Shown here: one piece after another, positions 12,760 to 37,541 of the stretch
Position numbering within the stretch: position 1 is the first letter of the stretch
Layout of the letters: each line of letters starts with the position of its first letter
NCBI GenBank assembly: GCA_938034415.1
Contig: CALHLE010000056.1
Span: 1-38,013, forward strand
DNA: 38,013 nt
Reading direction: 5' to 3'
From: an uncultured Anaerolineae bacterium
Lineage (GTDB): Bacteria; Chloroflexota; Anaerolineae; J036; Brachytrichaceae
Notes under the pieces: generated by a model
Seen by the model: only the letters and a program-made list of their open reading frames with translations
What the model was told of the DNA's origin: nothing
Databases searched by the model: none
Made by a program: the position numbers and the translations under genes

Positions 12760-14832
12760 CTACTGCAGCGCGGGAGGACGCGCGGTGAAGCTATAGAGGC
12801 GCTCACGCGTGGCGACATAGACCGTATTGCTAGTCGCGTCGAACGCCATGTCTTGCGCGTCAATGAATTCGTCTTGTGCGCCGCGATACTGGCGCACAAA
12901 CTGGCCCGTCTTCGTCAACTCCACCACCGAGCCGCTGCCGGCGTCGAGCACGAATATGCTGCCGCGATTAGGGTCATCGCCGCTAAGGGCGATCGCAGCC
13001 ACGCGACTCCACTGCTGATCGGGCAGGCCGGTCACGGTGAACTGCATCGGCTGACGGCTGAAATACTTGAGGATGGCGCCGCTGCGCTGCAGCACGTAGA
13101 TTGCCCCATCAATCGCAAAGTCCAGGCTTTCTTTAAGGGGGTTGTAGGGCGAGCGAAAGTAAGAATCCCCCGAACCCAGCCTGTCGCCGGCCAGTCGGTA
13201 GCGCCAGATTTGGCCCACCCCCGTGTCGAGCAAATAGACTGTGTTGTTGTACAGCTCGCCGGCCTGCACTCGCACCGGCGTTGCGTCGGCATTGGTGGAG
13301 ATGGGAATCGGCGAGGCACGGCCGGTGGCCGAGCTGTACTCGAAGATCTGCCCGACAGCGAATAACACCGCACCCTCCGTCCGCCAGCGATTCCCCGCAG
13401 TGGTCGCCCAAGCGATATCCACCAAAGCGACAGGGGTAGTCGTCATGCCCTCGCTAAACACGATGCTCACCTTTTTGCCGGTCGTGCCGGTGCGCTCGGC
13501 GTTGAGCACGTAGTAGTCGGCGCTGTTGGCATCCCGATTCAGCACGTATACGCCCAGCGCCGAGGCAGCGATGCGCCGCGCTGCACTGCCCTCGAACACG
13601 GCCAGCAGAATCGGCTGCACGCGCGTTACTTGGGCGATCTCATCGAGGCGGGCACGCGCCTGCGCCTTTGCCTCATCGAAGGCAGCGCGGTCTTGGGGGT
13701 TCTTCGCCTCATATTCAGAGATCATCTCCAGCGCTCGCGCCCAGTCCGCTTTGGCCTGAGCGGGGTCGGCCGCAGCCCTGGCCGCTTCCACCTGCGCCTG
13801 GGTATCGTTGCGCAGGCGAATCCGCTCCGCCTCGCCGCTGAACTGCAAATACAACACCGCAACAATGACGGCGACGACAATCGGGATCAATACGGCAATG
13901 GCGGCCAGAAGAAAGGTTGCCGTGCGAGAGCGCTGTTCCACATCGGCCGGCGCCTCCTGCGGCAACAAACGCGCGCCCAGGGCACCGAGGCTGCGTTGCA
14001 CCCAGCGCGCCACCTGGTTCACTGTTGCGGCGATGGTCGCAGTCGCCGGCGGTCCCGCCGGCGCAGGGGCGTGCGGCGAAGCAGCGGAGACGGATGGCGA
14101 TTCGGCGCGGCGCGCGGCGGAGACGGTTTCGGCAGATGACCGAGCCGGCTGAGGCGAAGCCGGTTTGGTCGCGCCAGGGGCGACATCTACCGACAGCGCG
14201 ACGCCGATCATGCGGCCGCGTTTAACGTTGGCGTTGAGGTACCCAGCCACCATGCGCGCGTCGCCTTTGCCCATGCAGACGCGGATCAACTCATCGCTCA
14301 CCCCCAGGGTAGAGCGCGAACCGGTCAGCACGAAGACATCGCCGGGCTGTACGGCAAAGTTATTGAACTGCACATCCACCGATGGGCTGATGCCGACGAC
14401 CTGAGCCGGGGTTGCTGGATAAGGCGCGATTACTTCAAAAGCGCCGGCGTCCGAGCGCGCGTAGGCGATAGCCGGTCCGGCCTGCGCGATGATCAATCCA
14501 TCGCCGGTAACCAACGCACAGCTAATCGAACCTTCCAGGCGACGGCTGAGCGGCGCGCCCTTGTTCAATTGCACAACGCGGTCGTTGGCCAGCTTGATCG
14601 CCAGGCGTAACGCAGAGGTCACACCGCCCGGCGCCCGCATGAACGCATCATGCAATGCGCGAGCGACGTCGGCGCACGTCGAAGGCGAGGCGGTAGGCAG
14701 ATCGAGGAAGACAACCAGCTTCTCGCCCTCTCGCGCCGCGCGTTTGCCCACAACGTGCAACGAAACTTGCGGCGTGTCACCCAGCTCTTCGCCATTGATG
14801 ACGTTGATGGAGGAGAACGAGACGTCGTACAT
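12760..14832 (-). CDS. Pseudo-PP2C phosphatase / transmembrane / beta-propeller-like protein
   Basis: A 690-residue protein of unusual architecture. Residues 1-215 have the layout of a PP2C-family phosphatase, but the three metal-binding signatures are lost: the usual DGMGG position reads FLDLPTAS, GDSR reads AGPAIAY, and SDG reads TGSRS. A Pro/Ala/Ser-rich linker (220-270) leads to one strong membrane helix (305-331). Then comes a charged helical stretch (333-402), and a C-terminal region (about 410-690) of repeated strands such as TVYLLDTGVGQIWRY, GSIFVLDAGSGSVVEL and NTVYVATRERLYSF, typical of NHL/six-bladed propellers. The first domain is probably cytoplasmic and the propeller extracytoplasmic. 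The ATG at 14832 follows the ligA stop by 4 bp; an upstream TTG at 14847 is less likely. Function is unknown. Confidence 0.75.
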   Translation of the reverse strand: MYDVSFSSINVINGEELGDTPQVSLHVVGKRAAREGEKLVVFLDLPTASPSTCADVARALHDAFMRAPGGVTSALRLAIKLANDRVVQLNKGAPLSRRLEGSISCALVTGDGLIIAQAGPAIAYARSDAGAFEVIAPYPATPAQVVGISPSVDVQFNNFAVQPGDVFVLTGSRSTLGVSDELIRVCMGKGDARMVAGYLNANVKRGRMIGVALSVDVAPGATKPASPQPARSSAETVSAARRAESPSVSAASPHAPAPAGPPATATIAATVNQVARWVQRSLGALGARLLPQEAPADVEQRSRTATFLLAAIAVLIPIVVAVIVAVLYLQFSGEAERIRLRNDTQAQVEAARAAADPAQAKADWARALEMISEYEAKNPQDRAAFDEAKAQARARLDEIAQVTRVQPILLAVFEGSAARRIAASALGVYVLNRDANSADYYVLNAERTGTTGKKVSIVFSEGMTTTPVALVDIAWATTAGNRWRTEGAVLFAVGQIFEYSSATGRASPIPISTNADATPVRVQAGELYNNTVYLLDTGVGQIWRYRLAGDRLGSGDSYFRSPYNPLKESLDFAIDGAIYVLQRSGAILKYFSRQPMQFTVTGLPDQQWSRVAAIALSGDDPNRGSIFVLDAGSGSVVELTKTGQFVRQYRGAQDEFIDAQDMAFDATSNTVYVATRERLYSFTARPPALQ

Positions 14833-14836
14833 CAAC

Positions 14837-17969
<3,133 letters not shown>

Positions 17970-27138: not shown

Positions 27139-28323
27139 TCATCGGCCGCGCCTCAGCAAGCTCGCGCGGCGCACGATGTGCTTGCCGTATTGCGCCCGCA
27201 GGTCGTCGAGCGCGCGCGCCAGCGCCAGCCGGGCCTCGCGCTGCGGGTCGCCGAACAGGGCCATCTGCAGTCCTTCGCTCAGGCCGCTCGCGCCAACGCC
27301 GATCAGGCGAATCGGGTCGCCGCGCTGGCGGTCGCGGCCTCCGCCCCGGCCCAGCCACGCCTGCCACCACAACGGCTCAACAGCAGCGAAGAGCTCCTCG
27401 CCGAGCTGCGTCGGCGCGGGGAGCTTGGTCTGGCGGGTGACCGTGTAAAAATCATGCCAGCGCAGCTTGAGATGGACGGTGTGGGCAAAGCGGTTGTGCG
27501 CGCGCAATCGCGCGGCCACTTCATCGCTCAGGAGGAGCAGCATCTGGCGCAGGGTCTCTGCATCGCGCACATCGCGGGCGAAGGTGCGCTCCTCGCTGAT
27601 GGACTTGACCTCACGCGCGGCATGCACCGGTGAACCATCCTGGCCATACGCTCGCGCGATGACCACCTCGGCGTGATCGCGGAAGACGGGGCGCAACAAC
27701 CGCGGCGAGGCGCGCTGCAAGTCGCCGATCGTCGCAATACCGATCTGCTCCAAACGCGCTGCGGTCGCCGGGCCGATGCCCCACAACTCGCCAACGGGCA
27801 TCGGCGCGAGGAACTCGGCCTCCTGGCCGGGAGCGACGACCAGCACGCCGTTCGGCTTGGCGCGCCCGCTGGCCATCTTCGCAACCAGCTTGCTCGTCGC
27901 GACACCGATCGAGGCGGGCAAGCCCACTTCATCGCGGATGCGGGATTGGATCTCTAACGCCAGCGCCCGCGGGTCTTGCATCAGTCCGGTCGCGTCGAGG
28001 AAGGCTTCGTCAATCGAGATTTGCTGTAGCGCGCCGCCATACTCGCGCAGCAGGTCCATCACGCGCTTCGAGTATTCGGCGTAATGCGCGCGCGAGCCGG
28101 ATACGATGATCAGGCCGGGGCACAGGCGCATCGCCTGCGACGTGGGCATGGCGTTGCGCACGCCGAACCGGCGCGCAGGATACGACGCCGATGACACCAC
28201 GCCGCGTTGGTCGGGGCGACCGCCAACGACGAACGGCTTGCCGCGCAGCGAAGGATTGCGCAGCTCCTCGACGGCACAGAAGAAGGCGTCGAGGTCAAGG
28301 TGAAGGATGATGCGCTCGGCTAT
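27139..28323 (-). CDS. dinB: DNA polymerase IV (Y family), no canonical start codon
   Basis: A translesion DNA polymerase of the Y family, about 394 residues, that bypasses damaged bases. Reading upstream of the first in-frame GTG (28200) gives 41 more codons with the essential N-terminus RIILHLDLDAFFCAVEE: metal ligand Asp10, steric-gate Phe15, and the finger region LRNPSLRGKPFVVGG. The catalytic SIDEAFLD lies at about 103-110. There is no ATG, GTG or TTG in that 41-codon stretch or in the roughly 25 codons before it. The natural position of the start, ATA at 28321-28323, overlaps the upstream stop codon as ATAG. Either AUA is used through translational coupling, or a base is wrong in the sequence. 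A GTG start at 28200 would remove an active-site Asp and is unlikely. Confidence 0.88.
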   Translation of the reverse strand: MAERIILHLDLDAFFCAVEELRNPSLRGKPFVVGGRPDQRGVVSSASYPARRFGVRNAMPTSQAMRLCPGLIIVSGSRAHYAEYSKRVMDLLREYGGALQQISIDEAFLDATGLMQDPRALALEIQSRIRDEVGLPASIGVATSKLVAKMASGRAKPNGVLVVAPGQEAEFLAPMPVGELWGIGPATAARLEQIGIATIGDLQRASPRLLRPVFRDHAEVVIARAYGQDGSPVHAAREVKSISEERTFARDVRDAETLRQMLLLLSDEVAARLRAHNRFAHTVHLKLRWHDFYTVTRQTKLPAPTQLGEELFAAVEPLWWQAWLGRGGGRDRQRGDPIRLIGVGASGLSEGLQMALFGDPQREARLALARALDDLRAQYGKHIVRRASLLRRGR

Positions 28324-32243: not shown

Positions 32244-32861
32244 TCACAGCCGGTCGTTGTCCGCGATCCATTCAGCGACGACATGGCTGGGGATGGCCAC
32301 GCTCAGATCGCCGCCGAAGATCATGGCGTTGACGCCGATAACTGCGCCGGCGGCGTTCAGCAACGGACCGCCGCTGTTGCCCGGCGCCAGCAGCACGTCC
32401 GAGCGGATGTATGGCGCAATGCGCCTCGTCCCGCGAATCGCCATGCTGCCCAGGCCGCTGATGACGCCAGAGGTGACGACGCCGGTCTGTCCCCACGGGT
32501 TGCCGATGGCAAAAACGAGTTCGCCCACCCGCAGGCGAGCCGAATCGCCGATTCGCGCAGTTGGCAGTCCACCTACAGCTAGACCGAGCAGCGCCAGGTC
32601 GAGTTGTGGGTCGCCGGCAAGCAGTTGGGCAGCAAAGCGGCGATTGTCCGCGGTGACGATGCGCAGGCCGCCGCTGTTACGGCGCGTTACTCCGGCTACC
32701 ACGTGCGCATTGGTGACGACCTCGCTGCGCGTAGCGTCGCTATGCCAGATGATGCCTGTGCCTACGCCGCGGCCGCCTGCGTCAACCCGAACGACGCTTG
32801 CTTTGGCAGCCTCGATCATGTCGGCGAACGCTTGATTCACCTCCAACAGAGATCGCGTCAT
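32244..32861 (-). CDS. Trypsin-like serine protease (S1C), no signal peptide
   Basis: A protein of about 205 residues with a chymotrypsin-fold protease domain only. Numbered from the GTG three bases upstream, the catalytic triad is His54 (VTNAHVVAG), Asp89 (PQLDLALL) and Ser164 (APGNSGGPL), and the oxyanion loop is intact. There is no signal peptide, membrane helix or PDZ domain, so the protein should stay in the cytoplasm, unlike most HtrA proteases. The ATG at 32861 or the GTG at 32864 can be the start; both lie just after the stop of the PDZ-containing protease gene. The two proteases, which share their type but not their domain composition, probably work together. Confidence 0.88.
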   Translation of the reverse strand: MTRSLLEVNQAFADMIEAAKASVVRVDAGGRGVGTGIIWHSDATRSEVVTNAHVVAGVTRRNSGGLRIVTADNRRFAAQLLAGDPQLDLALLGLAVGGLPTARIGDSARLRVGELVFAIGNPWGQTGVVTSGVISGLGSMAIRGTRRIAPYIRSDVLLAPGNSGGPLLNAAGAVIGVNAMIFGGDLSVAIPSHVVAEWIADNDRL

Positions 32862-32869
32862 CACTTTGC

Positions 32870-33763
32870 TTAGCTTTTCTGGCCGACGACAACGGTCAGC
32901 ATTTGAGCAATACCGCCACGGCTGACGCGGACACTTACCGGCTTACCGACCCGATCGCCATGCAGCGCTGCCATTAAATCGTCGGCGTCGTTGATGGGCT
33001 GGCCCTCAACGGCGAGCAGGATGTCGCCGATCAGCAGACCACCCCGCTCCGCCGGGCTGTTCTCTTCTACGCGCACGATGAGCAAGCCATACTCTTGCTT
33101 ATCGCTGCGTAGGGCCGGCGGTAGCTTCACCTGCTGGCTAACGATGCCAAGATAACCGCGCTTGACGTAGCCTTGCTCGGTCAAGGCGCCGGCCACCTTC
33201 AGCGCGACGTTCATCGGAATGACGATTGTCGCGCCGCGCACTAAACCTGTGGTGAGCAGACCGAACGCTGCGCCGGCGACATCCACCAAGGCGCCGCCGC
33301 TGAAGCCGGGATAGGGAATCGCGTCGGTCTGGATGTAGCGCTCCAGGGTTGCGCCGCTGCGGCCGGTGCGCAGCGAGCCGCCGACCTTGCTCACGACGCC
33401 CAAGCTGGCCATTACCCCATCAGGCGATGGACGGCCGACGGCCAGCGCAAGCTGTCCCACGCGCGCCTCGGCGGCCGCAGTCGCAAGCGGCACGCCAAGC
33501 CCTTGCACGCGCAGCACGGCGAGATCGGTCGAGGCATCGCGCCCAGCGATTTGCGCGCCGAGAACACGGTTGTCGTAAGTCTGTACGGTCAGGTTGTTCT
33601 CACGTTCTAGCACATGATCGGCAGTGAGCACAAGCTCATCGGCATAGGCTATGCCGGTTGCGGGCTGGCGCGCTCGTCCGTTGACCATAACAAGTGACTT
33701 GCCGATGCGCTCAACAGCATCGGCCATTTGGTTAGAAAACGCACTAAGCATGTTGATGTCCAT
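32870..33763 (-). CDS. HtrA-like serine protease with one PDZ domain, no signal peptide
   Basis: A 297-residue S1C protease. The catalytic triad is His50 (LTADHVL), Asp80 (STDLAVL) and Ser155 (PGFSGGAL). A single C-terminal PDZ domain (about 200-297; NSPAERGGLLIGDILLAVEG) follows. The protein opens directly with a helix (MDINMLSAFSNQMADAVERI) and no signal peptide or membrane anchor is visible, which is unusual for HtrA/DegP proteins and suggests a cytoplasmic role in substrate recognition. A purine-rich AAGGAG lies before the ATG. It is the first gene of a minus-strand operon with a second trypsin-like protease and the LuxR-like regulator. Confidence 0.9.
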   Translation of the reverse strand: MDINMLSAFSNQMADAVERIGKSLVMVNGRARQPATGIAYADELVLTADHVLERENNLTVQTYDNRVLGAQIAGRDASTDLAVLRVQGLGVPLATAAAEARVGQLALAVGRPSPDGVMASLGVVSKVGGSLRTGRSGATLERYIQTDAIPYPGFSGGALVDVAGAAFGLLTTGLVRGATIVIPMNVALKVAGALTEQGYVKRGYLGIVSQQVKLPPALRSDKQEYGLLIVRVEENSPAERGGLLIGDILLAVEGQPINDADDLMAALHGDRVGKPVSVRVSRGGIAQMLTVVVGQKS

Positions 33764-36448: not shown

Positions 36449-37541
36449 ATGATTCACCATAAGACTCGACTTGGGTTATTAAGCACACTACTTGCGGCGC
36501 TCATCGTGGCCTGCGCCGCGCCAGCGCAGCCAGCACAACCAGCCCAACCAGCCGCGCCAGCGCAGCCCGCTCAACCAGCTGAACAAAGCGTCAAGCCCAC
36601 CGAGGCGCCGGCTAGCGCTGCTGGCTCAGCCACAACAACCGAATGCCCGCGCCCCGAGGAGATGGACAAGCGCTTCTGCGACGAGGATGGCGACCTTGTC
36701 CCCGATGCACCTAAGGACCCTGCGCAGTGGGTGAATCCCGACACGCTGATCTTCGCCTACACCCCTGTTGAGGATCCGTCGGTATATCGCGTGGCCTGGG
36801 CCGATTTCCTGGCGCATATGGAGAAGGTGACCGGCAAGAAGGTGGAGTTCTTCGCGGTGGACTCCAACGCGGCGCAGCTCGAAGCGATGCGCGCCGGTCG
36901 GCTGCACGTCTCCGGCTTCAACAGCGGCAGCGTGCCGGTAGCCGTCAACTTCGCCGGCTTCGTGCCTTTCGCCATGATGGCCAAGGCCGACGGATCGTTT
37001 GGCTATGAGATGGAGATTGATTATCGTGCCGGCCGATAGCGACATCCAGAAGGTTGAAGACCTGCGCGGCCGCACCATCGCCTTCACCGAGCCGACCTCC
37101 AACTCCGGCTACAAGGCCCCCGTGGCGCTGTTGGCCTCGCAGTTCAACATGGTGGTCGACAAGGACTACAAGACGGTCTTCTCCGGCGGTCACGACAACT
37201 CGATCCTAGGCGTGGCCAACAAAGACTATGAGGCGGCACCGATCGCCAACTCGGTGATGAAGCGCATGATAGCGCGCGACAAGATCAAGGCCGAACAAGT
37301 GCGCTCGATCTATCGCTCCCAGACTTTCCCCACCACCGGCTACGGCTACGTGTACAACCTCGACCCCAAGCTGGCCGAGAAGGTGCGCGAGGCGTTCTTC
37401 TCGTTCAACTGGGAGGGCACCTCGCTGCAAAAGGAGTTCAGCCGCTCCGGCGAGGCGCAGTTCATCCCGATCACCTACAAGGAGTACTGGGCGGTCGTCC
37501 GCGAAATTGACAAGCAGATGGGCGTGAAATACGTCCCATAA
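36449..37541 (+). pseudogene. phnD: Phosphate/phosphonate ABC transporter substrate-binding lipoprotein (PhnD-like), single-base frameshift
   Basis: The two consecutive frames (36449-37039 and the +1 frame to 37541) together form one PhnD-family binding protein of 363 residues if one base is removed. The first part has a lipobox (LIVAC, Cys22), an AQP-rich linker, DEDGDLVPD, LIFAYTPVEDPSVYR and RLHVSGFNSGSVP. The second part has DLRGRTIAFTEPTSNSGY, SGGHDNSILGV and VREAFFSF. The break is around 37016: GAG ATT GAT in frame one must become GAG TTG ATT to restore an uninterrupted MELIIVPADSD. The cause may be a sequencing/assembly error or a true mutation. Downstream it is followed by a strong intrinsic terminator-like hairpin and then phnC. 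Confidence 0.9.
36524..36586 (+). repeat. Imperfect 9-bp repeats coding an (Ala-Gln-Pro)n linker
   Basis: Codons for Ala-Gln-Pro and close variants repeat about seven times directly after the lipobox cysteine of the PhnD-like protein. The nucleotide repeats are imperfect (GCG CAG CCA, GCA CAA CCA, GCC CAA CCA), consistent with a flexible surface linker that can change in length. Confidence 0.75.

Follow-up and report, generated by a model that had tools for sequence, protein, structure and literature searches.

The window considered here (the whole analyzed stretch of 38,013 nucleotides from contig CALHLE010000056.1 of an uncultured Anaerolineae bacterium) holds, beside ligA, a gene whose protein joins a phosphatase-shaped domain, a membrane helix, and a propeller in one chain (Table 1). 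The original prediction had the reading frame, strand, and start right; the start MYDV is conserved and corresponds to the ATG at 14832. Full-length relatives, 62–89% identical within the genus, have the same domains, and the architecture is therefore not a matter of chance.

Table 1. The gene, the parts of its protein, and its upstream neighbor, in positions of the window
Feature	Residues	Positions	Strand	Basis or remark
Whole gene	1-690	12760..14832	-	690 aa plus stop; single copy
PP2C-fold domain, predicted pseudophosphatase, without flap	1-218	14179..14832	-	Profile, hhalign, AlphaFold model
Pro/Ala-rich linker, amphipathic segment at its end	219-304	13921..14178	-	Conserved R-x-L-P
Membrane helix	305-331	13840..13920	-	Hydropathy maximum 308-326; more positive on its N-terminal side
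Three-helix bundle	335-400	13633..13830	-	AlphaFold model; weak TPR-like profile matches in relatives
Six-bladed NHL-type beta-propeller	401-683	12784..13632	-	Profile and model; signature LDxGxGQIWRY
ligA, upstream neighbor		14837..16930	-	Transcript probably shared, in own genus and some relatives only

How widespread is such a gene? Its own genome, whose nearest relatives are labeled Candidatus Roseilinea and Thermoflexales (class Anaerolineae, Chloroflexota), has one copy, and the gene is intact in the genus. Of 34 relatives of good quality, 33 have a homologue, as do 99 of the 103 good genomes sampled from Anaerolineae and, with a single-sequence query, at least 54 of the 123 genomes of a phylum sample. 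LDxGxGQIWRY and one other short pattern are specific enough to pull relatives out of 84,980 species genomes. It is, in short, a single-copy gene strongly conserved in almost all Anaerolineae and in many other Chloroflexota. One match, from Marisediminitalea (L145), spans only residues 105–180 of the query and was rejected as a full family member.

Neither Pfam nor NCBIfam offers a family over cut-off for the whole protein, and a single-sequence search of the PDB returned nothing usable; profiles succeeded. When the PDB was searched with a profile of 33 N-terminal domains from the family, every match with an E of 0.01 or lower was a PP2C phosphatase (best tPphA, 2.4e-12), and hhalign matched the domain to the canonical PP2C family of its own and related genomes with a probability of 99.6%. 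The AlphaFold model of residues 1–225 (30 sequences; pLDDT 90.3, pTM 0.88) has the central beta-sandwich and flanking helices of this fold and fits tPphA with a Z of 18.9 over 204 residues (rmsd 3.4); tPphA, a Sphaerobacter phosphatase, Stp1, PstP, and others all lie at Z 17–19 over about 200 residues. The flap insert is absent. That the N terminus is PP2C-like, as originally proposed, is thus upheld by profile, alignment, and predicted structure alike.

The same proposal held that all three acidic metal motifs had been lost, and this is true of two. In the hhalign alignment, P120 stands at the Asp of GDSR (motif II) and S172 at the Asp of CSDG (motif III), but D44 of FLDLPTAS aligns with the first metal Asp (ADGMGG), and only the glycines that follow it are gone. 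A census of 114 aligned family sequences, with denominators that vary by position, finds D or E at the motif I position in 72 of 101 members, the motif II Asp in 1 of 107, and the motif III Asp in 2 of 107, with no member having both of the latter; in the region of the fourth motif, column 207 is Asp in 44 of 113 members and R207 in the window protein. In other Chloroflexota classes, members have likewise lost these residues, with AQVQPAQAY in place of GDSR and LCSSxxA in place of CSDG. An Asp loss that runs through the family and into other classes looks ancient, and not like an accident of one genome. Judged by its motifs, the domain is predicted to be a catalytically dead PP2C fold without the metal ligands that catalysis needs, although a single metal might still be bound by D44 and, in many distant members, by the Asp close to the fourth motif.

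Is a domain of this kind still of use to the cell? Against eight congeners, its dN/dS is mostly 0.05–0.09, rising to 0.15 and 0.23 with the two remotest of them. The propeller gives 0.10–0.14, or 0.24 with the remotest congener, and the linker about 0.3–0.5 within the genus. The low ratios of the dead domain argue that it is retained by strong purifying selection and is, hence, functional. In other words, a phosphatase fold appears to be under selection without its catalytic residues, which is what is meant by a pseudophosphatase. At long distance, the propeller is the best-conserved globular part (mean identity of 23% vs. 21%), and within the linker, the R-x-L-P motif (L290-P291) keeps its P in 91% of distant members.

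In the C-terminal half, the AlphaFold model of residues 335–690 (pLDDT 93.2) shows three helices followed by a propeller of six four-stranded blades, bounded in the model by residues 402–683, that matches NHL propellers at Z 22–26 (Brat NHL 25.7, PknD 23.3). The family profile retrieves NHL structures by sequence as well (Thin at 4e-19, PknD at 1e-11), and Pfam NHL matches at E up to 0.1 occur in 19 of 56 relatives and not in the window protein. The propeller-like C terminus of the original prediction can accordingly be named an NHL propeller. That prediction had staked itself on a PP2C fold at one end and a propeller at the other, and the models gave both; what it called a charged helical stalk is, in the model, a compact bundle of helices at 336–353, 357–377, and 379–399.

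Between the two halves, hydropathy finds a single hydrophobic segment, 308–326, within the one membrane helix that had been proposed. One membrane helix is likewise found in 87 of 112 members; the other 25 have a second hydrophobic segment, usually 40–110 residues earlier, which in the 4 two-segment members examined sits in the region before the membrane helix (in the window protein, this region ends in the conserved L-P) and which, if it crosses the membrane, could alter the topology. In the 87 one-segment members, the net charge of the N-terminal flank is +1.7 vs. +0.3 for the other, and because the N-terminal flank is the more positive, the N terminus is predicted to lie in the cytoplasm with the propeller outside the membrane.

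We know this layout, a lone membrane helix between an N-terminal signaling domain and a propeller, from PknD, a Ser/Thr receptor kinase of Mycobacterium tuberculosis that consists of a kinase, a membrane helix, and an extracellular, C-terminal, six-bladed NHL propeller (1rwi; PMC1262709; PMC6213207), although for our protein the orientation is the predicted one. PknD differs in that its inner domain is a Hanks-type kinase, whereas the window protein would have a dead PP2C there and has an extra three-helix bundle before the propeller. The inner domain has its own relatives. PP2C (PPM) phosphatases of the PstP and tPphA type share the fold (Z 17.7–18.9, profile E 2e-12), and PstP is also membrane anchored, but the window protein is without two of their three acidic metal motifs and without their flap; to our knowledge, PstP has not been described with a propeller. 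PP2C phosphatases of the SpoIIE and RsbU type also link the fold to a membrane or a sensor, and a few family members match the SpoIIE profile weakly, but those are active partner-switching enzymes with another topology and another sensor. For pseudophosphatases as such, the precedents are in animals: TAB1 and PHLPP1/2 combine a PP2C fold and a degenerate metal site with a proposed binding or scaffold role (PMC12002173). Their architecture is unrelated, one of their metal sites is still present, and PHLPP has also kept the flap. A survey of PP2C domain architectures in bacteria, published in 2025, mentions neither NHL or other propeller partners nor inactive members (PMC12088040). The original prediction took the combination as not known to be a described system, and our literature search found no description of it either, which is weak evidence, as most subscription journals lay outside its coverage.

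Neighboring genes were compared at 88 loci, 21 from the gene's own family and 67 from others. The ATG lies four bases after the ligA stop, and the suggestion that the two are cotranscribed is probably correct for the genus and some relatives; beyond them it does not extend, since ligA is upstream in 12 of the 21 own-family genomes and in 0 of the 67 others. A link so lineage specific is therefore uninformative about function, and we have rejected ligA as a functional partner. Directly downstream on the same strand, in other families, one finds tsaD (22 of the 88 loci) or a gene for an LCP cell-wall ligase (16 of 88), both of which are on other contigs in the genome at hand. The commonest neighbor, tsaD, also adjoins the gene in other classes, in several cases so closely that stop and start codons overlap; its role is in tRNA modification, and it offers no clue to signaling. 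In 12 loci from other families, a gene for a metallophosphoesterase lies upstream, and predicted lipoproteins are downstream in several members from other classes and in one genus of the own family. In one family of the class (L066, L069, L092, L098, and L108), a conserved protein of ~330 aa, with no Pfam match in L066, is encoded directly downstream. A MoxR gene adjoins the homologue in some relatives; the MoxR/vWA/propeller conflict systems (PMC7159879) were considered and rejected, since their propeller forms one protein with vWA and their description includes no dead PP2C. As for the Ser/Thr kinase system that had been suggested, it is permitted and no more: five Hanks-type Ser/Thr kinases, of which one has PASTA domains, and a single canonical PP2C are encoded in the genome, all on other contigs, and the neighborhoods compared showed neither a kinase nor a response gene conserved beside the gene.

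What, then, might such a protein do? With somewhat more confidence than doubt, we favor a single-pass, PknD-like envelope receptor in which a pseudophosphatase has taken the place of the kinase. The propeller would bind a ligand in the envelope or outside the cell, binding would cause a change across the membrane, in conformation or in oligomeric state, and the N-terminal domain would act by binding and not by catalysis, holding or releasing a phosphoprotein, a kinase, or a phosphatase. This partner may belong to a cell-envelope pathway, because an LCP gene often follows. Counting against the receptor are tsaD as the most frequent neighbor, the absence of a conserved kinase or response gene alongside, the second hydrophobic segment of some members, and the metal that D44 or the Asp at column 207 might retain. 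Of the signal-transmitting receptor originally proposed, the architecture has held up, and a receptor fits it best because PknD has the same outside part; the signaling itself we infer.

The genes downstream could be read differently, that is, as pointing to a scaffold in which propeller and bundle organize cell-wall or surface assembly on the outside with LCP-type enzymes while the PP2C shape is no more than a docking anchor in the cytoplasm and no signal crosses the membrane. The LCP and lipoprotein neighbors and the better long-distance conservation of the propeller speak for this, and we consider it unlikely though well worth keeping in mind: in most of the genus, selection acts more strongly on the inner domain than on any other globular part, which is more than a mere anchor calls for, and the LCP adjacency is missing from most lineages and from the gene's own family. 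Could the N-terminal domain instead still be an enzyme, a slow or narrowly specific phosphatase using D44 and unusual ligands to hold one or two metals? The acidic residue at motif I in most members and the frequent Asp at column 207 would suit it, as would the single metal that PHLPP2 and TAB1 retain in their M2 site. However, these two, with that one site left, are reported to be inactive (PMC12002173), the GDS Asp is gone in 106 of 107 members and the SDG Asp in 105 of 107, no glycines follow motif I, there is no flap, and an arginine occupies the fourth motif of the window protein, all of which makes an enzyme very improbable. Finally, identity across the phylum is very low and the window protein meets no Pfam family over cut-off, as might be expected if the resemblances were chance, the halves unrelated in function, or the gene decaying; this we regard as already refuted by high-confidence models with strong matches, by presence in nearly all good relatives and intactness in the genus, and by dN/dS far below 1.

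The receptor we favor would matter for several reasons. Two folds, each well understood, are combined in it in a way that we have not found described, and nearly all of a bacterial class has conserved its gene; it would be a PP2C pseudophosphatase found in bacteria throughout a phylum, so that noncatalytic phosphatase receptors would not be solely an animal invention; and its gene offers a concrete entry to envelope signaling in a poorly studied phylum.

How far back might the family go? Full-length homologues occur in two genomes of ~0.8 Mb, one labeled Patescibacteria (L143, 413–2581; L144, 6984–8978), with the whole architecture kept and Asp changed to Asn at PP2C motifs II and III. Recent work places the Candidate Phyla Radiation (CPR; Patescibacteria) as sister of Chloroflexota (PMC12329446), and one might imagine that this family of presumed pseudophosphatase receptors descends from a common ancestor of Chloroflexota and Patescibacteria and has been kept as a core envelope sensor. 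Were it true, there would be a new kind of bacterial receptor and also a shared gene in support of the proposed sister relation, but we think it quite doubtful; both genomes are derived from bins, transfer or misbinning may have put the homologues there, and the apparent sister of the two sequences in our tree (L081) is a broken sequence.

Three further observations concern other genes of the window. At 36449–37541 (plus strand), a one-base frameshift near 37015, whether mutation or assembly error, divides a gene for a phosphonate/phosphate-type substrate-binding protein into two frames that overlap. A DNA polymerase IV-like gene at 27139–28200 (minus strand) has an in-frame extension upstream to ~28300 that holds the N-terminal HLDLDAFF motif and no ATG, GTG, or TTG, so that an unusual start codon is possible. 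Two adjoining trypsin-type serine protease-like genes occupy 32244–33763 (minus strand), and a PDZ-like tail seems to be present in 32870–33763 and not in 32244–32864.
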